A stretch of DNA of 64,000 nucleotides, taken from the NCBI RefSeq assembly GCF_029320955.1, contig NZ_CP119757.1, positions 2,356,001 to 2,420,000 of the forward strand. The letters run 5' to 3'. The notes under the pieces are model-generated. The model was not told the DNA's origin and did no database searches. It saw only the letters and a program-made list of their open reading frames with translations. This document shows, in pieces, positions 9,210 to 16,188 of this stretch. Both the position numbers and the translations under genes were made by a program. The stretch comes from Flavobacterium sp. YJ01. GTDB lineage: Bacteria > Bacteroidota > Bacteroidia > Flavobacteriales > Flavobacteriaceae. How positions within the stretch are numbered: position 1 is the first letter of the stretch; each line of letters opens with the position of its first letter.

Positions 9210-10199
9210 TTATTTCTTTATTGTTTCTGCCTTAAAAATGTCGGCAAGTAAATGATCTAATTGTTTGTACTCGATTAAAAAAGCGTCATGTCCGTGAACC
9301 GAAACAATTTCGCTGTAGAAAACATTGTCTTTAAATTTCTTTAATTCTTCGTAGGTTTCGACATTTTCTTTGGCCGTAAAAAATAAGTCAGAATTGATTC
9401 CTACAATATGAATTGAAGCTTTTGTTTTGGACAATAAGTTTTCAAAACTTTCACTATTTCTAGTAATATCAATTGTTTTAAGCAACTGATTCATTAATTT
9501 ATAAGAAGACAATTGAAATCTTTGCTGTAGTTTTTTCCCGTGATGTGCGAGCCAGCTTTCGATATTAAAAATCAAAAGATCTTGGTTAACGGTACGCTGA
9601 AATTTCTCTTTGAATGATTCTGGCGAACGGTAACAAAGCATCGCATGAATTCTGGCATCTTCAATTGGTTTTGAAGAATTATTCAAGATTTGTTCTTGCA
9701 GAAAACAGTTTGCAATAAGCCAGTCTGTAGATTTCCAGTCGCTCGCAATCGGAATAAGATTTTCTGTGATGTTTGGTTCTAAAGCTAAAATTTCCCATGC
9801 AATTCCGCCGCCAACAGAACCTCCGATAATGGCAAAAAGTTTTTCAATTTGTAAAGCTTTAATTCCTTCAACAAAAATTCTAGCTACATCTCTAGCTGTA
9901 AAATCAAGATAATTTTCGATTAAAAAAGAATTTGTTCCGTTTCCTGGAACATCAAAAGCTAAAATGGTATAAACAGAAGTATCTATCGTTTTACCTTCGC
10001 CAATTAAATTATTCCACCAACCATTCTCACCAGTAACTTCAGCGTTTCCCGTTAGGGCATGATTAACCAAAACAATAGGCGCGCTGTGCAAAGATTGCCC
10101 TGCCAGCGTAAAATGTAAAGGTATAGAATGATAAGTTGCACCACTTTCTGTGATGAAATCTTGAATTATAATAGGGTTTGGTATATTTTCCAATTTCAA
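9210..10199 (-). CDS. metX: Homoserine O-acetyltransferase-like alpha/beta hydrolase
   Basis: 329 residues, MetX-type alpha/beta hydrolase fold. The nucleophile elbow GGSVGG puts Ser128 at the catalytic position. The acid lies in GINSDLFF and the histidine in VHGHDAF near the end. NHALTGNAE near residue 46 resembles the oxyanion loop of MetX. The reaction is acylation of homoserine with acetyl-CoA (or succinyl-CoA in some members), committing it to methionine. It is shorter than many MetX proteins (about 350-380), so the assignment rests on motifs plus context: directly behind a SAM-I riboswitch and ahead of thrA. Confidence 0.9.
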   Translation of the reverse strand: MKLENIPNPIIIQDFITESGATYHSIPLHFTLAGQSLHSAPIVLVNHALTGNAEVTGENGWWNNLIGEGKTIDTSVYTILAFDVPGNGTNSFLIENYLDFTARDVARIFVEGIKALQIEKLFAIIGGSVGGGIAWEILALEPNITENLIPIASDWKSTDWLIANCFLQEQILNNSSKPIEDARIHAMLCYRSPESFKEKFQRTVNQDLLIFNIESWLAHHGKKLQQRFQLSSYKLMNQLLKTIDITRNSESFENLLSKTKASIHIVGINSDLFFTAKENVETYEELKKFKDNVFYSEIVSVHGHDAFLIEYKQLDHLLADIFKAETIKK

Positions 10200-10276
10200 A
10201 TCTGTTGTATTATCTGATTTGTATTATGGAAATATTAGAAAGAAAAAACTAGAGTAAACTAGAAAAAATTCTTGTT

Positions 10277-10380
10277 GTTATCTTTCCACGTTGGGCGTGG
10301 TAGAATGTAGCACCTTCTTCGTTTTACCGAAGGGTTGCTAAGGATTCATCGGGTCTAATCCCTCGTCCTTTCTTTATAAC
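10277..10380 (-). ncRNA. SAM-I (S-box) riboswitch
   Basis: The minus strand has the S-box landmarks in order: P1 strand GTTAT, AGAAAGG, GAGGGATT.GACCCGATGA, AGCAACC, a hairpin CTTCGGTAAAACGAAG, GGTGCTACATTC, a terminal hairpin CCACGCCCAACGTGG, then GAAAGATAAC closing P1. It controls metX-thrA-osmC-metZ. About 77 bases separate it from the metX start. I see only a weak CTAG hairpin plus U-run there, so the output mechanism (termination or translation) is uncertain. Confidence 0.95.
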
Positions 10381-10409
10381 ATTTCAATACGTTTTTGAAC
10401 TTAATGGTG

Positions 10410-10440
10410 CAAATTAACTACTATTTTCTTAAACAAACAA
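10410..10440 (-). promoter_or_regulatory. Probable promoter of the SAM-I riboswitch operon
   Basis: Minus strand TTGTTTG (10434-10440) followed by TTAATTTG (10410-10417), one mismatch to TAnnTTTG. Predicted start near 10403, about 20 bases before the riboswitch P1. Confidence 0.55.
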
Positions 10441-10571
10441 ATTTTATCTAAAAGTGTTTGTTAAATTTCTGAGTCTTACTTTAGCAAAAACTATTATACG
10501 CAAAAATTTACCGAACATAAATGCCCAGTAAAATTAAGCAGGTTTTAACCTAGTTTATGTCGCTTTTCTGT

Positions 10572-10775
10572 TTAGATAAAAAGCGTTTCATTCTCTTTTG
10601 AATACATTAAAAACAATAAAGAATTTGGTACTTTTTTCGTTGTACTTTTTCCTTCTTCCGTAATTCCGAATCTTGGGTGAGCCAATTCGTTTGTTGGCAG
10701 CGGCGGATTATTTTTTCTTGTCCTTCTGTTTTTCAAATTTGAAATTTTTTCTGCTAAGTAGTTCAATGTGCTCAT
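10572..10775 (-). CDS. Small protein of unknown function downstream of tandem leader ORFs (locus B)
   Basis: 67 residues, basic in the middle (LKNRRTRKN), with no signal peptide or membrane segment. I do not recognise a family. The C-terminal SLLFLMYSKENETLFI resembles SLLFHLYDLEEEAENLF in the 61-residue protein at 14078-14263. Both genes occupy the same place, right after two leader ORF plus terminator units. The resemblance suggests homologues belonging to one regulatory cassette. A non-coding 190 bases then separates it from the riboswitch operon. It could alternatively be a chance ORF, but the shared position and C-terminus argue against that. Confidence 0.55.
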   Translation of the reverse strand: MSTLNYLAEKISNLKNRRTRKNNPPLPTNELAHPRFGITEEGKSTTKKVPNSLLFLMYSKENETLFI

Positions 10776-10853
10776 GATATTAAGTTTTAGTTCAGTTTGC
10801 GTTTTATAATCTTTATTTCTCGTTTATGTTTGTGTTAAATCGTTTAAAAGAAT

Positions 10854-10892
10854 AAAAAAACCCTTTTGGATTCTTAGATACCAAAAGGGTTT
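10854..10892 (-). terminator. Attenuator terminator B2
   Basis: The stem AAACCCTTTTGG / CCAAAAGGGTTT (10858-10869 with 10881-10892) has an 11-base loop and a U-tract in leftward transcription. The minus-strand segment at 10877-10887, which includes part of this terminator, is complementary to 10914-10925 just after leader ORF B2. Confidence 0.85.
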
Positions 10893-10923
10893 AAGTTTTT
10901 AAACTCATTTATACTTTTTAGTA

Positions 10924-10992
10924 TCAACAGACCAGCACGCAAATAAGCGCGACAGTAAACATCTTATTGTTCACCTGTAAGGATTTATTCAT
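10924..10992 (-). CDS. Leader peptide ORF B2 (22 codons)
   Basis: Reads MNKSLQVNNKM then FTVALICVLVC, ending TGA. The ORF finishes with two Cys codons among Val/Leu/Ile. The RNA starting at its stop codon (GATACTAAAAAG, 10925-10914) can pair with CTTTTGGTATC in the following terminator with one wobble and one bulge. A ribosome at the stop would cover this antiterminator strand. No Shine-Dalgarno is visible, normal for the phylum. Function as a leader peptide is inferred from layout and likeness to the other three ORFs. Confidence 0.6.
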   Translation of the reverse strand: MNKSLQVNNKMFTVALICVLVC

Positions 10993-11035
10993 CTGTGATT
11001 TATATTTTATTTTTAAATTCTGCATTTGTGTAAAA

Positions 11036-11070
11036 TTAAAAAGCCTCCCAAAATTTTTCGGGAGGCTTTT
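11036..11070 (-). terminator. Attenuator terminator B1
   Basis: The stem AAAGCCTCCC / GGGAGGCTTT (11040-11049 with 11060-11069) has a 10-base loop and a U-tract on the minus strand (AATTTTA). A complementary GAGGCT lies upstream at 11117-11122 within leader ORF B1. Confidence 0.8.
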
Positions 11071-11071
11071 A

Positions 11072-11170
11072 CTATATATTGTGTTTTCTTACAATTTTTA
11101 AGCAATAGACAACCCAGCCTCGGTAATAACCGAAATGGCACAAAACATTTTGTTGACTTTTAAGTTCATT
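11072..11170 (-). CDS. Leader peptide ORF B1 (32 codons)
   Basis: Begins MNLKVNKMFCAISVITEA, then GLSIALKIVRKHNI and TAG. The VNKMFC start resembles MNLVAKNMCC of A1 and TVNKMMMCC of A2. The ORF stop abuts the terminator, unlike the other three, so full translation might disturb rather than allow the hairpin. Either the real reading frame ends differently or this unit works another way. Codons 14-17 lie in a small hairpin (CGGTTATTACCG) like one in A1. Confidence 0.45.
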   Translation of the reverse strand, partial: NELKSQQNVLCHFGYYRGWVVYCLKIVRKHNI

Positions 11171-11197
11171 TGATTTCTAGTAGTTTTTGGGTATAAC

Positions 11198-11228
11198 AAA
11201 TATGCAACTATTTTTTTTATTACACAAA
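11198..11228 (-). promoter_or_regulatory. Probable promoter of leader locus B
   Basis: Minus strand TTTG (11225-11228), 19-base spacer, CATATTTG (11198-11205). Only the first base deviates from TAnnTTTG. Locus A has the matching form TTTG-N20-CAAATTTG, which supports a shared ancestry. The rest of the gap to 11409 holds nothing recognisable. Confidence 0.55.
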
Positions 11229-11409
11229 TGAAAATCAAGAATTTAATTACAAAATTCGTTAAAATTGTGTTTTTTTACGACAAATACCGTCTTACAAAAA
11301 CAAACAGAGTAAAAAACCTACAAAAATATTGACTTTTCTCACTAATTTCGCTTGACAAATCAGCTTATCAAAGAACTTTAAACTTTTTCTTTCCTACTTT
11401 TAAAAAAAA

Positions 11410-12498
11410 TTACAGCCAGACCGCTTCTTTATTTCTAATTTTTTCGGCAATTTTCAAAATATCACTTATAATTCCCCTCGAAATAGCTTGTTTACACGGC
11501 GGTGCGCTTTGAATTACAATCGGAACATTAGCGTACGATTTTGTATAAATTTCAAAAATAGTATCCGAACCTTTCAATTGTCCGATAGCAGAATCTATGG
11601 GCTCAGAAATCAATTTGACTTCTAAATTGCCGCTTTCGACATCAAATTCGCCAACATATCTTAAAACATGATTTTCTGCCTGAGTAATTTTGGCAATTTT
11701 GAATGCTTTATCGACCGCATCTTTATTTAGTACGCCATTCTTTTCGAGATGCTGTTCTGTAATAAAAGGTCTAATTTTAATATCTGAAAACTCAAAATCT
11801 TTTCCAATTTCTCGGGCAAGAATCAAGAGTTTCCTAGCGGTATCATTTCCAGACAAATCTTCTTTAAAAGTAGATTTCATTAAACCTAAAAGACTCGCAT
11901 CTTTTAAGACAGAAGAGAATGTCACATCTTCTGATGAAAAACGATTAAAAACATAACTCAAATTATCTGAGAATACACCTCGAATTTTGGTGATTTTTTC
12001 TCCCGAATAATACAAATCTCTTAAAGTTTGCAAAACTGGAATGCCAGTATCGACCGAAGTTTCATACAAAAACTCTTTGTCATGCTTTTTGAGATTTACT
12101 CGCAAGTCTTTATACAGATCTATTGGTAACGTATTTGCTTTTTTATTTACTGCTACAATATTAAATCCGTTTTCGATCAGAGTTTTATAATGTTTCACCA
12201 ATTCGTCACTAGCGGTTGCGTCTACAGCAATAAGATTTTCAAATTCGTTTTCTTTGGCAAATTCAATAACATCTTCGACTTTAAAAGGAACAGCCAATTG
12301 TCTAAAATTGGTTTCCCAAGAATAACCAACTCCTTCTTTTTCAAAAAAAGCAACTGTCGAATTGGTAATAATCGGAAAATGAAAATCGACATTTTTACTT
12401 TCCAGAAAAAACTCCTGACTTTCGATTATCTGATTAATCAAAGTACTTCCGATATTTCCAATTCCAAAAAGGATAATGTTTATTTTAAGCTTTGACAT
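11410..12498 (-). CDS. Homoserine dehydrogenase-like paralogue with altered active site
   Basis: 362 residues aligning end to end with the dehydrogenase half of ThrA in this window. The nucleotide loop FGIGNIG (residues 11-17) is kept, as are Asp209 and Lys213 in KEDLSGNDTARK. Other conserved segments are changed. ThrA YTEPDP is LMKSTF here, so the substrate Glu (equivalent to yeast Hom6 Glu208) is Lys198. NVGAGLP is SVDTGIP, FSGTLS is FSDNLS, and QGAGAG is QSAPPC. The reading frame is long and intact, so it is retained, but normal dehydrogenase activity is doubtful. It lies between metY and leader locus B. Confidence 0.85.
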   Translation of the reverse strand: MSKLKINIILFGIGNIGSTLINQIIESQEFFLESKNVDFHFPIITNSTVAFFEKEGVGYSWETNFRQLAVPFKVEDVIEFAKENEFENLIAVDATASDELVKHYKTLIENGFNIVAVNKKANTLPIDLYKDLRVNLKKHDKEFLYETSVDTGIPVLQTLRDLYYSGEKITKIRGVFSDNLSYVFNRFSSEDVTFSSVLKDASLLGLMKSTFKEDLSGNDTARKLLILAREIGKDFEFSDIKIRPFITEQHLEKNGVLNKDAVDKAFKIAKITQAENHVLRYVGEFDVESGNLEVKLISEPIDSAIGQLKGSDTIFEIYTKSYANVPIVIQSAPPCKQAISRGIISDILKIAEKIRNKEAVWL

Positions 12499-12513
12499 AA
12501 TTTTTGTTTTTTA

Positions 12514-12613
12514 ACCATACAAGTGATATAAGTTCATTTAAAATATTTTTATTTAAAAGTTTAAACGTGTTGTATGCGTCTTTACTAAAATGAACTTATA
12601 TCACTTATATGGT
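12514..12613. repeat. Long inverted repeat, ATATAAGT family, copy 2
   Basis: 26-base arms at 12514-12539 and 12588-12613 pair with one mismatch (core AAGTGATATAAGTTCATTT). A 48-base loop separates them. The arms match those of copy 1 at 4112-4179 apart from a few bases. It occupies nearly the whole gap upstream of the homoserine dehydrogenase paralogue, leaving little room for an independent promoter. Confidence 0.8.
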
Positions 12614-12640
12614 TTAATTTTTATAATAATGCTTTTCACA

Positions 12641-12670
12641 AAAAATTACCTTTAGCACATTGACTAAAGG
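12641..12670 (-). terminator. Terminator downstream of metY
   Basis: The stem CCTTTAG / CTAAAGG (12649-12655 with 12664-12670) has an 8-base loop. AAAAATT on the plus strand gives a U-rich tail in leftward transcription. Confidence 0.65.
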
Positions 12671-12698
12671 CAATCTTTCAAACAAAAAACAAAAAAAC

Positions 12699-14003
12699 CT
12701 AGTTTTTATTTATGCTGTATTGAGAAAGTGCAACACTTTGAAAAACAGCTTGAAGATCTGCAATCAAATCTTCTATATCTTCAATTCCGACAGACAAACG
12801 AATCAAATCTTTAGAAACTCCAGTTTCAGCTTGTTCTGCTTCTGTTAATTGCTGATGCGTAGTACTTGCAGGATGAATAATTAATGATTTTGTGTCTCCA
12901 ATATTTGCTAATAATGAGAATAATTTAGTTTCGTCTACTACTTTTTTTGCCGCATCAAAACCGCCTTTTAATCCAAAAGTGATAATTCCGCTTTGACCTT
13001 CTGGCAAGTATTCTTTAGCTAAATCATTGTATTTACTTGATTTTAAACCTGGATAATTTACCCAAACCACCTCATCTTGTTTCTCCAACCATTCGGCCAA
13101 AGCCAAAGCATTCTCACTATGTTTCTTGATTCGGATTGGAAGTGTTTCTAATCCCTGAATAATTTGAAAAGCATTAAACGGACTCAAAGCAGAACCGAAA
13201 TCACGCAAACCTTCTATTCGAGCTTTTGCAATAAAAGCAGCATTTCCTAAAGCTTCGTGATAAACCAATCCGTGATATCCAGCAGATGGTTCGGTAAATT
13301 CTGGGAATTTTCCGTTTGACCAATCAAAATTACCCGCATCGATGATAACGCCTCCTAACGAAGTTCCGTTTCCTGCGATATATTTAGTTAAGGAATGAAT
13401 TACAATATCGGCACCATATTTAATTGGGTTTAATAAATAAGGTGTCGCAACTGTATTATCTACTATAAATGGCACTTTGAATGCTTTGGCTTCTGCCGAG
13501 ATTGCTTTTAAATCCAAAACGTCTAATTTTGGGTTTCCAAGAGATTCAACAAAAAAAGCTCTAGTATTTTCTTTAGCTGCTTTGGTGAAATTTTCTGGTT
13601 TTGAAGGATCTACAAATGTTGTTGTAATTCCTAATCTTGGCAGAGTAACTTTCAATAAGTTATAAGTTCCGCCATATAAACTGTTTGATGCAACAATATG
13701 ATCTCCAGCTTTTAGCAAAGTCAACAAAGTTGTAGAAATTGCCGACGCTCCAGAAGCCGTTACTACAGCTCCAATTCCGCCTTCAAGCGCAGCAAGTCTT
13801 TGTTCTAAAACATCATTTGTTGGATTATTTAATCTCGTATAAATAAATCCTGCTTCGGCAAGACCAAATAAATTGGCCGCATGATCGGCATTATTAAATA
13901 CATATGAAGATGTTTGATAAATAGGCACGGCTATAGTTGATCCATTTTTTGTAACGTCGTGTCCTGCGTGTAGTGCGTTTGTTGCAAATTTTTGTGTGCT
14001 CAT
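12699..14003 (-). CDS. metY: O-acetylhomoserine sulfhydrylase
   Basis: 434 residues, the length of MetY rather than of MetB/MetZ (about 390). The PLP lysine is Lys207 in HSLTKYIAGNG, preceded by FIVDNTVATPYL. ETGVSKDLIRLSVGIED closes the conserved core. It condenses O-acetylhomoserine with sulfide to homocysteine. It is the main enzyme gene behind leader locus A, with only the 61-residue small protein between, so Met/Cys-dependent attenuation would act on it. About 15 residues after AVFQSVA look like a variable tail. Confidence 0.94.
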   Translation of the reverse strand: MSTQKFATNALHAGHDVTKNGSTIAVPIYQTSSYVFNNADHAANLFGLAEAGFIYTRLNNPTNDVLEQRLAALEGGIGAVVTASGASAISTTLLTLLKAGDHIVASNSLYGGTYNLLKVTLPRLGITTTFVDPSKPENFTKAAKENTRAFFVESLGNPKLDVLDLKAISAEAKAFKVPFIVDNTVATPYLLNPIKYGADIVIHSLTKYIAGNGTSLGGVIIDAGNFDWSNGKFPEFTEPSAGYHGLVYHEALGNAAFIAKARIEGLRDFGSALSPFNAFQIIQGLETLPIRIKKHSENALALAEWLEKQDEVVWVNYPGLKSSKYNDLAKEYLPEGQSGIITFGLKGGFDAAKKVVDETKLFSLLANIGDTKSLIIHPASTTHQQLTEAEQAETGVSKDLIRLSVGIEDIEDLIADLQAVFQSVALSQYSINKN

Positions 14004-14077
14004 GATTTCTTAGTTTTTTAGGTATTGTTAATACGTTTATATTGTAATTGATTTTTGAAATTGTAATTGAATTTGAT

Positions 14078-14263
14078 TTAAGCAAAAAGATTTTCTGCTT
14101 CTTCTTCAAGGTCATACAAATGAAACAGCAATGATTTTTGAGTTTTAATACGCTGTTCAGGATTATATTTTTCAGCTTCTGCTGCTTCTTCAGAATTATT
14201 ATTTAAAGAATTATTTCTTAACAAATATTGAAATGCGATTGTATTTATATCTAATGTTTTCAT
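14078..14263 (-). CDS. Small protein of unknown function downstream of tandem leader ORFs (locus A)
   Basis: 61 residues, acidic (EEAAEAEKYNPEQ), with no signal peptide. I do not recognise a family. It starts about 25 bases after attenuator terminator A2 and ends 74 bases before metY, so it is the first structural gene of the attenuated transcript. Its C-terminus (KSLLFHLYDLEEEAENLFA) resembles that of the 67-residue protein in the matching place of locus B. A role in sensing or binding within methionine or cysteine synthesis is possible but unsupported by any motif. Confidence 0.65.
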   Translation of the reverse strand: MKTLDINTIAFQYLLRNNSLNNNSEEAAEAEKYNPEQRIKTQKSLLFHLYDLEEEAENLFA

Positions 14264-14288
14264 GGTTTAAATTTTTAAGAGATTGAAA

Positions 14289-14327
14289 TAAAAAAAAGCC
14301 CTTTCGGATGGCTTACCAAAAGGGCTT
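14289..14327 (-). terminator. Attenuator terminator A2
   Basis: The stem AAGCCCTTTCGG / CCAAAAGGGCTT (14296-14307 with 14316-14327) has one weak pair, then an eight-base U-tract in leftward transcription. Its upstream arm contains CTTTTGG (minus strand, 14322-14316), the exact complement of CCAAAAG at 14368-14362, codons 24-26 of leader ORF A2. Confidence 0.88.
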
Positions 14328-14358
14328 ATAGTTGAAACTATAACAAAGATTCGATCTT

Positions 14359-14439
14359 TCACTTTTGGCAACAGCAACTTTGGATACACATTGGCATCTT
14401 ACAACACATCATCATTTTATTTACTGTTGAATTTTTCAT
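14359..14439 (-). CDS. Met/Cys-rich leader peptide ORF A2 (26 codons)
   Basis: Reads MKNSTVNKMMMCCKMPMC then IQSCCCQK and TGA: six Met and six Cys out of 26. Codons 24-26 (TGC CAA AAG) carry the antiterminator CCAAAAG. A ribosome paused at the early MMMCC run would leave CCAAAAG free to open terminator A2. One that reaches the stop would cover it and let the terminator form. This is the classical logic of amino-acid attenuation; Cys/Met sensing is inferred from codon content. Confidence 0.78.
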   Translation of the reverse strand: MKNSTVNKMMMCCKMPMCIQSCCCQK

Positions 14440-14470
14440 TTCTTATTCTTTTACTTTTTTTGATTACATA

Positions 14471-14502
14471 AAAAAACCTCTGCTGTTTGGCAGAGGTTTT
14501 TA
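14471..14502 (-). terminator. Attenuator terminator A1
   Basis: A perfect CCTCTGC / GCAGAGG stem (14477-14483 with 14490-14496), extended by A-U pairs, ends in a U-tract in leftward transcription. GCAGAG in leader ORF A1 (14545-14540) can pair with its upstream arm. Confidence 0.88.
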
Positions 14503-14536
14503 TTGTATTTGTAGACTTAGTTACTAAACAATAGAG

Positions 14537-14593
14537 TTACTCTGCGGATAATTCCGACATCATGCAACACATATTTTTAGCTACTAAATTCAT
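14537..14593 (-). CDS. Met/Cys-rich leader peptide ORF A1 (18 codons)
   Basis: Reads MNLVAKNMCCMMSELSAE then TAA, with an MCCMM run at residues 8-12. The last two sense codons (GCA GAG) form the six-base antiterminator strand complementary to CTCTGC in terminator A1. The ribosome at the stop would hide it. First of two consecutive leader units before the small protein and metY. A promoter lies about 20 bases upstream. Confidence 0.75.
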   Translation of the reverse strand: MNLVAKNMCCMMSELSAE

Positions 14594-14613
14594 TTTCTTT
14601 TTGTTTAATAAGG

Positions 14614-14645
14614 CAAATTTGAGAACTTTTTTTGAAACCACCAAA
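14614..14645 (-). promoter_or_regulatory. Probable promoter of leader locus A / metY
   Basis: Minus strand TTTG (14642-14645), 20-base spacer, CAAATTTG (14614-14621), one mismatch to TAnnTTTG. It drives A1, A2, the small protein and metY. Confidence 0.6.
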
Positions 14646-14663
14646 TAAAAACCAAATTATTTT

Positions 14664-14687
14664 CCATTACCCTATCAAATTAATATG
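14664..14687 (-). promoter_or_regulatory. Operator-like site sharing the sulfate-operon motif
   Basis: Minus strand ATATTAATTTGATAGGGTAA then TGG. It shares GATAGGGTAAT and flanking TA.TAA with the cys operon site at 3031-3053 (17 of 23 positions). Here it lies upstream of the promoter, so an activator or a different repression geometry would be expected. Confidence 0.5.
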
Positions 14688-14734
14688 CTATTGTTAAATT
14701 TCTCCTATAAAAAATAAAAAAAGTTGAACTTTAA

Positions 14735-14764
14735 TTTGCAAATCAAAATGGTTTTATACCTTTG
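14735..14764 (+). promoter_or_regulatory. metK promoter
   Basis: TTTG (14735-14738), 18-base spacer, TACCTTTG (14757-14764): a full consensus match. Transcription should start near 14771, at the edge of the riboswitch. Confidence 0.8.
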
Positions 14765-14772
14765 CACCCGAA

Positions 14773-14875
14773 ACAGAGGAAAAATTTGAACTGATTGCAA
14801 CCTCTTCATAATGAAATGATTTCGTTATGAATGCTGAAAAATTCCTTTCAGTAGTAAAAAATGCTAAAGCAGGAA
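14773..14875 (+). ncRNA. SAM-II riboswitch, long-loop form (probable)
   Basis: P1 is AGAGG (14775-14779) with CCTCT (14801-14805). The loop between reads AATTTGAACTGATTGCAA, matching the SAM-II loop ATTT.AAC...ATTGCAA. The 3' segment AAAAAATGCTAAAGCAGG (14857-14873) matches the SAM-II pseudoknot strand (AAATG..GCTAAA..AGG). Two small hairpins are inserted between, as in the long-loop variant known from Bacteroidota. It precedes metK by about 60 bases, the expected target. Confidence 0.75.
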
Positions 14876-14894
14876 CTCTCCTTTAGCCCTTTTT
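14863..14894 (+). terminator. Terminator-like hairpin built on the riboswitch 3' strand
   Basis: GCTAAA (14863-14868) pairs with TTTAGC (14882-14887) and GGA (14872-14874) with TCC (14879-14881), followed by CCTTTTT. The GCTAAA strand is also the aptamer pseudoknot strand, so the two folds compete. Confidence 0.55.
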
Positions 14895-14937
14895 AGCAAT
14901 TATTTTTCTCGATTAATTTTAAATTTAATACATTATT

Positions 14938-16188
14938 ATGGCTTATTTATTTACGTCAGAATCTGTTAGTGAAGGGCATCCAGACAAAGTTGCAGATCAA
15001 ATTTCGGATGCATTAATTGACAACTTTTTGGCATTTGATGCTGACTCAAAAGTAGCATGTGAAACTTTAGTTACTACAGGTCAGGTAATTCTGGCTGGTG
15101 AAGTAAAGTCTAATACTTATTTAGATGTACAGCAAATTGCGCGCGAAGTAATCCGTAAAATTGGATATACTAAAAGCGAGTATATGTTTGAAGCAAATTC
15201 TTGCGGGATTCTTTCAGCTATTCACGAACAATCTGCTGATATTAATCAGGGAGTAGACAGAGCAAAGCCAGAAGAGCAAGGAGCTGGAGATCAAGGAATG
15301 ATGTTTGGTTACGCGACAAACGAAACTGAAAACTTCATGCCGTTGGCTCTTGATTTATCTCATAAATTATTACAAGAGTTAGCTATTTTAAGACGCGAGA
15401 ATAAAGAAATCACTTATTTACGTCCAGATGCTAAATCTCAAGTAACTTTAGAATATAGCGATGATAACAAACCAACTCGTATTGACGCGATTGTTATCTC
15501 AACTCAACATGATGATTTTGATGAAGAAGCTGCAATGTTGGCTAAAATCAAAAAAGATATTATCGAAATCTTGATTCCAAGAATTATCGCTAAAAACCCT
15601 GAGCATGCTCATTTATTTAACGATAAAATCAACTACCATATTAACCCAACAGGAAAATTCGTTATTGGAGGTCCTCACGGAGATACTGGTTTAACAGGAA
15701 GAAAAATTATCGTTGATACTTACGGAGGAAAAGGTGCTCACGGTGGTGGTGCATTCTCTGGAAAAGATCCAAGTAAAGTTGATAGAAGTGCTGCTTATGC
15801 AACGCGTCATATTGCTAAAAACTTAGTTGCTGCTGGTGTTGCTGACGAAATCTTAGTTCAGGTTTCTTACGCAATTGGAGTTGCTGAACCAATGGGAATC
15901 TTCATTGAAACTTACGGAACTTCTAAAGTAAATTTAACTAACGGTGAAATCGCTAAAAAAGTAGAAGCTATCTTCGATATGCGTCCTTATTTTATCGAAC
16001 AACGTTTAAAATTAAGAAACCCAATTTATAGCGAAACTGCTGCTTACGGACACATGGGACGTAAACCAGAAACGGTAACTAAAACTTTCTCTGCTCCAGG
16101 CGGAAACGAAAAAACAGTTACTGTTGAATTGTTTACATGGGAAAAACTTGATTTTGTTGACCAAGTAAAAGCTGCATTTGGATTGTAA
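14938..16188 (+). CDS. metK: S-adenosylmethionine synthetase
   Basis: 416 residues. The N-terminal [19 protein letters not shown] is the MetK methionine/ATP-binding signature, and [12 protein letters not shown] (near 122) and [19 protein letters not shown] (near 268) are the other two family motifs. It makes S-adenosylmethionine from methionine and ATP in the cytoplasm. It is monocistronic, with its own promoter and SAM-II-type leader upstream and a terminator at 16212. It is slightly longer than the Escherichia coli enzyme (384) because of insertions in the middle, as in other Bacteroidota. Confidence 0.97.

Follow-up and report, generated by a model that had tools for sequence, protein, structure and literature searches.

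The window analysed here, a 64 kb stretch of DNA from Flavobacterium sp. YJ01, carries on its minus strand a metY gene with 97% identity to the metY of named Flavobacterium records. Two short open reading frames (ORFs) rich in Met and Cys codons, here called leader ORFs 1 and 2, lie upstream of the gene, each before an intrinsic terminator. The features of this region are as follows:

14614..14645, minus strand: promoter-like pair TTTGG...TTTGC, 5' of leader 1, read directly from the sequence
14537..14593, minus strand: leader ORF 1, MNLVAKNMCCMMSELSAE, from the sequence
14543..14559, minus strand: putative protector hairpin (1:2) within leader 1, its 3' side overlapping the antiterminator tail
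14540..14545, minus strand: putative antiterminator 5' strand GCAGAG, which is the tail of leader 1
about 14472..14501, minus strand: intrinsic terminator 1, with the 5' arm CTCTGC (14495-14490) as antiterminator partner
14359..14439, minus strand: leader ORF 2, MKNSTVNKMMMCCKMPMCIQSCCCQK, from the sequence
14362..14371, minus strand: putative antiterminator 5' strand TTGCCAAAAG, which is the tail of leader 2
about 14296..14327, minus strand: intrinsic terminator 2, with CTTTTGGTAA (14322-14313) as antiterminator partner
14078..14263, minus strand: 61-aa small protein, the first gene after the putative attenuators, no Pfam match
12699..14003, minus strand: metY, O-acetylhomoserine sulfhydrylase family (PF01053; TIGR01326, 644.9 bits against a cut-off of 495.1)

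The 5' to 3' order is promoter-like pair, leader ORF 1, terminator 1, leader ORF 2, terminator 2, 61-aa ORF and metY, and a T run follows each of the two terminators. Two features expected of an attenuator, a short ORF with pathway codons and an intrinsic terminator before the structural gene, are present ahead of metY. The small protein gene and metY probably form one transcription unit. A sequence-only reading of this DNA had reported the two ORFs and their terminators with coordinates and peptides that proved right, and had counted six Met and six Cys in ORF 2, as we did. It had also paired GCAGAG (14545-14540) with CTCTGC (14495-14490) over 6 bp, which we recovered, and CCAAAAG with CTTTTGG over 7 bp; the latter helix in fact reaches 10 pairs, including one G-U (TTGCCAAAAG:CTTTTGGTAA).

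The window contains 365 ATG-started ORFs of 15–40 codons, only five of which reach at least 5 Met/Cys per 12 residues, and the two most Met/Cys-dense of the 365 are leader ORFs 1 and 2. When positions 14264-14620 were shuffled with dinucleotide content preserved (n = 3,000), at least one such dense ORF arose in 23 shuffles and two in none. Conservation, described below, is a stronger argument for the reality of the ORF pair than these chance counts. In 24 of 36 sequences, the promoter-like pattern TTTGG-N18-26-TTTG lies no more than 75 nt 5' of leader 1, where 0.03 would be expected from mononucleotide shuffling. (A stricter promoter consensus matched 7 of 36, with 0.7 expected, and missed the window's own pair; this pattern was too strict.) A promoter-like TTTGG...ATTACATTTA-type stretch was also seen immediately 5' of leader 2 in five loci (L001, L010, L011, L017 and L024), which may mean that this clade transcribes the two units separately or has no leader 1.

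A second tandem pair of leaders, overlooked in the sequence-only reading, as was the hairpin within ORF 1, lies further along the same strand. The sulphur-related features that surround metY are:

11098..11169, minus strand: leader A of the second pair, MNLKVNKMFCAISVITEAGLSIA, terminator at 11070-11037
10924..10992, minus strand: leader B of the second pair, MNKSLQVNNKMFTVALICVLVC, terminator at about 10892-10858
10572..10775, minus strand: small protein of 67 aa, downstream of the second pair
10275..10382, minus strand: SAM-I riboswitch (RF00162, 78.4 bits) before a metX-like gene
14770..14877, plus strand: SAM-II riboswitch (RF01726, 47.7 bits) before metK

The second pair (11169-10858) sits between a homoserine dehydrogenase gene and the 67-aa ORF, which is followed by the SAM-I riboswitch and the metX-like gene; the best NCBIfam match of the latter is MetX, at 182 bits, below the 500-bit cut-off. 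It has fewer Met/Cys codons than the metY pair, and its two tail/arm pairings are predicted to form in unfinished RNA with P of 0.79 and 1.0. The 61-aa (14263-14078) and 67-aa (10775-10572) proteins are similar at their C-termini, where both carry a motif like SLLFxxYxxExExLFx, and neither has a Pfam match. Among the best 120 of 178 homologues of the 67-aa protein, those with names are called "hypothetical" or "uncharacterized", and the named organisms are Flavobacterium or metagenomes. Three kinds of RNA sensor for sulphur metabolism (SAM-I, tandem leaders and, on the opposite strand, SAM-II) occur within 7 kb of the window (9210-16188).

We examined 80 metY loci, the best 80 of at least 565 confirmed relatives. 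In 66 of them, metY is preceded by one or more short, Met/Cys-dense ORFs with a terminator. Both elements were found in 30 of these loci, the first only in 9 and the second only in 27, so that 36 of the 66 have a single element; the upstream sequence of L045, L055, L058 and L061 is short, and the absence of a first element there means little. Terminator 2 is absent in nine loci (L043, L047, L048, L051, L052, L054, L056, L057 and L059). Met and Cys make up a fraction of 0.26 of the 49 distinct leader-1 peptides and 0.36 of the 43 distinct leader-2 peptides. Six of the 49 leader-1 peptides have no Cys, every one of the 49 has at least one Met in addition to the start, and all 43 leader-2 peptides used have both Cys and a Met beyond the start.

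A model, R1, was built from leader-1 sequences; it models the terminator pairs and no antiterminator pair, and its matches resemble leader 1 by construction. A search of 149 genomes of the family (148 genera) gave matches in 16 genomes from 15 genera. At E ≤ 1e-5 there were matches in 15 genomes besides the window's own, 14 of them from other genera of the family. The leader adjoins metY in 12 of these 15 genomes and metX in two (L104 and L116); for L112, neither gene was found within its 2.5 kb. The ORFs, the terminators and the tail/arm complementarity persist in relatives, with compensatory changes in other genera; this is the opposite of the lack of conservation that the sequence-only reading had named as refuting it. 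Within the window's own genome, a search with the pattern TGYTGYATGATG matched leader 1 alone. Several Flavobacterium genomes have two strong leader-1 matches each, and in one genome (G399, L136) a copy of leader 1 precedes a gene resembling Cys/Met enzymes, with 33% identity to metY.

The tail/arm pairing was assessed by exchanging tails and arms between loci. The sets comprised 36 of 40 element-1 and 43 of 58 element-2 sequences, with the window included and mostly near-copies dropped; a wrong or early-ending ORF was taken for L033 (element 1) and for L026 and L040 (element 2), and these rows were counted. The duplex of a tail with its own arm was stronger than with the arms of others for both element 1 (−13.9 vs −12.6 kcal/mol, n = 36) and element 2 (−13.6 vs −12.1 kcal/mol, n = 43), and 0 of 5,000 permutations were as strong in either case, a count that overstates independence because both sets contain relatives. 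Taken singly, 21 of 36 loci (element 1) and 31 of 43 (element 2) had an own pairing stronger than the average of the others. A cleaner set, mostly one sequence per genus, consisted of the 14 other genera, for which the values were −14.3 vs −10.7 (0 of 10,000 permutations; own pairing stronger than the average of the others in 11 of 14). Second leaders in 7 of 15 genomes, one of them of the window's own genus, gave −15.7 vs −11.7 (6 of 10,000 permutations). This set came from nine second ORFs picked by eye from the 15 loci, seven of which had a terminator, leaving out other short ORFs, such as those in L104, L114 and L117; the script found no terminator for the second Met/Cys ORFs of L106 and L115.

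Among the other genera, the pairing has been fully replaced in cases such as GCAGAGG:CCTCTGC, GCAGCG:CGCTGC and GCAAGGGC:GCCCTTGC; further examples of matching tails and arms are GCAGAG:CTCTGC, TGTGGG:CCCACA (L040) and GCGGTATTGCC:GGCAATACCGC (L055). Column-based covariation of the antiterminators was modest. In MAFFT alignments, the columns of antiterminator 1 were 98.4% paired and those of antiterminator 2 were 87.8% paired, each with two two-sided pairs, a level reached by 8 and 17 of 500 shuffles, respectively. The terminator columns were 99.1% (terminator 1) and 100% (terminator 2) paired; for terminator 2, further pair types were not above shuffles (391 of 500). The tail CCGCAGAG is read in the S-A-E frame in most leaders and in a P-Q-R, P-Q-S or T-Q-R frame in 13 of 51, and it is thus the nucleotides that are kept and not the peptide. 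Together, these comparisons argue that the tail/arm pairing is under selection.

Within leader 1, a hairpin extends from the last Met codon to the first bases of the tail (e.g., GTGGAA..TTCCGC, GTGTA..TACAC or CAGGA..TCCTG). It was present in all 56 leader-1 segments (L131 was left out, its tail not having been found). Shuffled segments also reach 4 bp in 60% of cases, but their mean is −1.9 kcal/mol, compared to −6.0 kcal/mol for the real ones. When the halves of the hairpin were swapped between loci, they were as good as the loci's own in 0 of 10,000 permutations for all sequences and in 1 of 10,000 for the 14 other genera. By this modelling, the hairpin would serve as a protector (1:2), giving leader 1 the classical three-hairpin layout. 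There is no apparent protector in leader 2.

In leader 1, the last in-frame Met/Cys codon lies at a distance of 15 nt from the tail in 31 of 51 leaders and of 14 nt in 11 of 51. (Of the exceptions, the 4 nt of L107 is a regex artefact, being 15 by eye, and the 5 nt of L117 is counted from a Cys, the last Met being at 14 by eye.) Toeprinting has shown that a ribosome with a codon in its A site covers about 12–13 nt past the first base of that codon. With this footprint, a spacing of 14–15 nt means that a ribosome stalled at the last Met/Cys codon would just free the tail of leader 1.

Folding of unfinished RNA was consistent with such a switch (L033 was left out of the element 1 set). With a ribosome at the stop codon, the terminator was predicted to form in 35 of 35 leader-1 and 43 of 43 leader-2 sequences. 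With the ribosome placed so that the tail was free, tail and arm paired in 35 of 35 and 43 of 43, respectively; the stall position was picked by rule, and this result says no more than that the arm is taken by a tail that is free. When no ribosome was present, the tail paired with the arm in 14 of 35 leader-1 and 41 of 43 leader-2 sequences, the leader 1 tail thus being predicted to be kept off the arm in only 21 of 35. Finished RNA at equilibrium favoured the terminator even with a stalled ribosome (P = 0.996 for leader 1 and 0.622 for leader 2), and the switch would therefore have to act during transcription, as classical attenuation assumes. This predicted equilibrium preference genuinely limits what the folding can show. 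Covariation and the folding of unfinished RNA point to an antiterminator that is mutually exclusive with the terminator, with the caveat of the terminator preference in finished RNA.

Leaders of the same layout were found before genes of other amino acid pathways. In the window's own genome, a His leader, MISIQLHHHHLHYCSQAMC, and a terminator precede hisG, and CTCAAGCG in this ORF was judged by eye to be able to pair with CGTTTGAG in the terminator (the folding script masked part of it and did not confirm the pairing). An Ile leader, MKNFNNIIIAIISIIAIKQ, is found before ilvA (L090, E = 0.07), and a tandem Ile pair, MKNLITIICSINTIIGDNREECLFN and MKNLNSIIISAIIITCLF, before the gene for the acetolactate synthase small subunit (L084). 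This branched-chain gene with two serial Ile-rich leaders (L084, 1501-1800) indicates that the doubling is not confined to Met/Cys leaders. In other genomes, Met/Cys leaders precede cysH (L129 and L138; PF01507), Met leaders precede metX (L131) and metY (L132), and in another family of the phylum a His leader precedes hisG (L130). This match between codon run and pathway is the best argument for aminoacyl-tRNA supply as the signal, in a sample that consists of what one model happened to match and is not a survey of all amino acid operons. Of the weaker R1 and R2 matches examined in the window's own genome (L085-L094 and L099-L102), L090 alone looked genuine, and the others resembled ordinary terminators or gene ends. 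Four of the 12 loci from the order and phylum (L133, L134, L135 and L139 of L128-L139) likewise look like ordinary gene-end terminators.

The window's own cysH (1377-2087) has no leader in front of it, being preceded by a permease gene. An inverted-repeat-like CTACTAACCCGATAGGGTAATAG lies upstream of the permease-cysH genes (about 3053-3031, minus strand), and a gene for an Rrf2-family regulator (PF02082) lies near them (4599-4189, minus strand). The cysteine genes of the window may use a repressor; a genome of the same genus (G203) has a Met/Cys leader before cysH (L138).

We conclude that the region 14593-14296 on the minus strand very probably comprises two serial ribosome-mediated transcription attenuators that control the small protein gene and metY. 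From sequence comparison, they are most likely attenuators that read the supply of Met, plus Cys. RNA polymerase would reach leader 1 first and leader 2 next. With ample charged tRNA-Met (and perhaps tRNA-Cys), a ribosome would proceed to the stop codon of leader 1 and cover GCAGAG, and the terminator would form. If Met were short, the ribosome would stall with the ATGATG run of leader 1 in its A site, its leading edge would open the protector hairpin, and the freed GCAGAG would take the 5' arm of terminator 1 before the 3' arm is made, allowing transcription to continue. If leader 1 were not translated, the protector hairpin would hide the tail and termination would be the default. Leader 2 would work in the same way through its Met and Cys run, with read-through as the predicted default in the absence of translation, there being no apparent protector. 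The terminators in series would multiply repression, and metY would be fully on only with both relieved.

Leader 1 looks like mainly a Met sensor, as Cys is absent from some of its peptides and an extra Met from none. The last Cys codons of leader 2 fall within the antiterminator strand, which a ribosome stalled there would hide; a more likely sensor is the MMMCC...MC run further upstream. Stalling, co-transcriptional switching and relief by shortage of Met and Cys are what we infer from these features. The attenuation logic of the sequence-only reading, supported by conservation and covariation, can stand, while its two-hairpin picture of leader 1 was incomplete, there being three alternative hairpins.

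Other explanations were weighed against this one. The nascent Met/Cys-rich peptide might itself stall the ribosome by binding a ligand in the exit tunnel, be it methionine, SAM, cysteine, a metal or an oxidant, in which case codon supply would not be the signal. Cys/Met-rich peptides bind metals in general, and the constant presence of Cys and additional Met in the leader-2 peptides would fit such an arrest. An arrest peptide of the TnaC/SecM type would be expected to be conserved at the stall site, however, and by eye the leader peptides keep their composition while their sequence varies: the Met/Cys content stays high and the spacing and RNA pairing are retained, the peptide sequence only poorly. 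The tail is read in two frames, moreover, and his and ilv genes have leaders of the same layout with His or Ile runs. We regard peptide arrest as improbable.

Still less likely is that the ORFs are translated but act by RNA protection or re-initiation (translational coupling), the terminators being constitutive tuners and the tail/arm pairing incidental. The equilibrium folding of the finished leader RNAs, which favours termination, speaks for this, but tail and arm co-vary across genera, as does the protector hairpin, and the spacing of 14–15 nt is nearly fixed. Least credible of all is a riboswitch or T-box sensing the signal at metY in this genome. It gains some plausibility from the SAM-I riboswitch, which is found at the same place, 112–288 nt before metY, in 14 of the 80 loci (L063-L065 and L070-L080). 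Rfam scans of all 80 loci showed that these are exactly the 14 leaderless ones, and SAM-I was found upstream of metY in 0 of the 66 leader-bearing loci (the sequence before metY spans only 167 nt in L061 and at least 406 nt elsewhere). At positions 14289-14593 there was no Rfam hit at the gathering score, SAM riboswitch classes and T-box included, and a riboswitch at this site was rejected. SAM-I (RF00162) senses SAM by its aptamer, and it was absent upstream of metY in the leader-bearing loci. In a metY tree built from 60 representatives, the distribution of leaders and SAM-I requires a minimum of one change, and a single change has weak support (67/45).

The reading as serial attenuators places the metY leaders beside the classical ribosome-mediated attenuators, trp, his, thr, leu and ilv of the enterobacteria. 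Leader 1 shares with them a short ORF containing codons for the product and protector, antiterminator and terminator hairpins. The metY leaders differ from them in that the ORF's own tail is the 5' strand of the antiterminator, in the two serial units, in the combination of Met and Cys codons, in a leader 2 without an apparent protector and in the host, a member of the Flavobacteriales. A protector hairpin is not found in every attenuator. A study of attenuation in proteobacteria reportedly mentions Bacteroidetes/Chlorobi cases and a Met-responsive thrA leader. The principle of ribosome-mediated attenuation is described in PMC1183508.

According to a transcriptome study of F. psychrophilum, there are strong clues for leader-peptide attenuation upstream of amino acid biosynthesis operons, with hisG and pheA among the conserved 5' elements (PMC9723704). 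The word "methionine" does not occur in its main text, and its leader-peptide section names neither metY nor tandem units. Cys leader peptides upstream of cys operons have been reported in Actinobacteria, without a conserved terminator hairpin and with Rho-dependent termination weakly suggested (PMC1262725); as described there, they resemble the metY leaders in their run of Cys codons and differ from them in having no such hairpin. The cysteine-responsive polycysteine ORFs reported in mycobacteria likewise have a Cys codon run upstream of cys operons. A leader peptide, metL (MSTTSDRTPATEATTTPGARCMCRRMCAF), has been proposed before metNIQ in Streptomyces lividans; it has Met and Cys near the peptide end and precedes a Met import operon but, as reported, is a single leader, unlike the metY pair (PMC8079986). 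The tandem attenuators described for Salmonella mgtCBR belong to another operon and do not concern sulphur amino acids (PMC3641672). A 2010 survey states that, before its own finding in Firmicutes, no cases of leader-peptide attenuation were known outside Proteobacteria and Actinobacteria (PMC2965389). Among the open-access papers listed, no title or abstract gave a description of a Met/Cys tandem leader in Bacteroidota, which is weak evidence of absence. The earlier suggestion that a doubled Cys/Met attenuator is not known to be described accordingly holds for the literature searched, while flavobacterial leader-peptide attenuation in general is already in print (PMC9723704).

We see an even chance that a broader scheme applies, in which the Flavobacteriales share a widespread design with the ORF tail as the antiterminator strand and a codon run retargeted to Met, Cys, His or Ile. 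The metY pair would then be a two-input gate for sulphur amino acids, with untranslated defaults of off for the first unit and on for the second, that substitutes for SAM-I, control having moved between SAM and charged tRNA. Leader-peptide attenuation is best known from Proteobacteria, and the metY leaders would represent a version for sulphur amino acids in Bacteroidota that is well conserved and covaries. They offer a clean natural experiment at one gene, before which relatives have a SAM riboswitch or leader peptides and never both among the 80 loci examined. This makes it testable why charged tRNA would be read instead of SAM, and why there are two serial terminators. A further suggestion is that short ORFs rich in Met/Cys, His or Ile should be annotated as regulators in such genomes.
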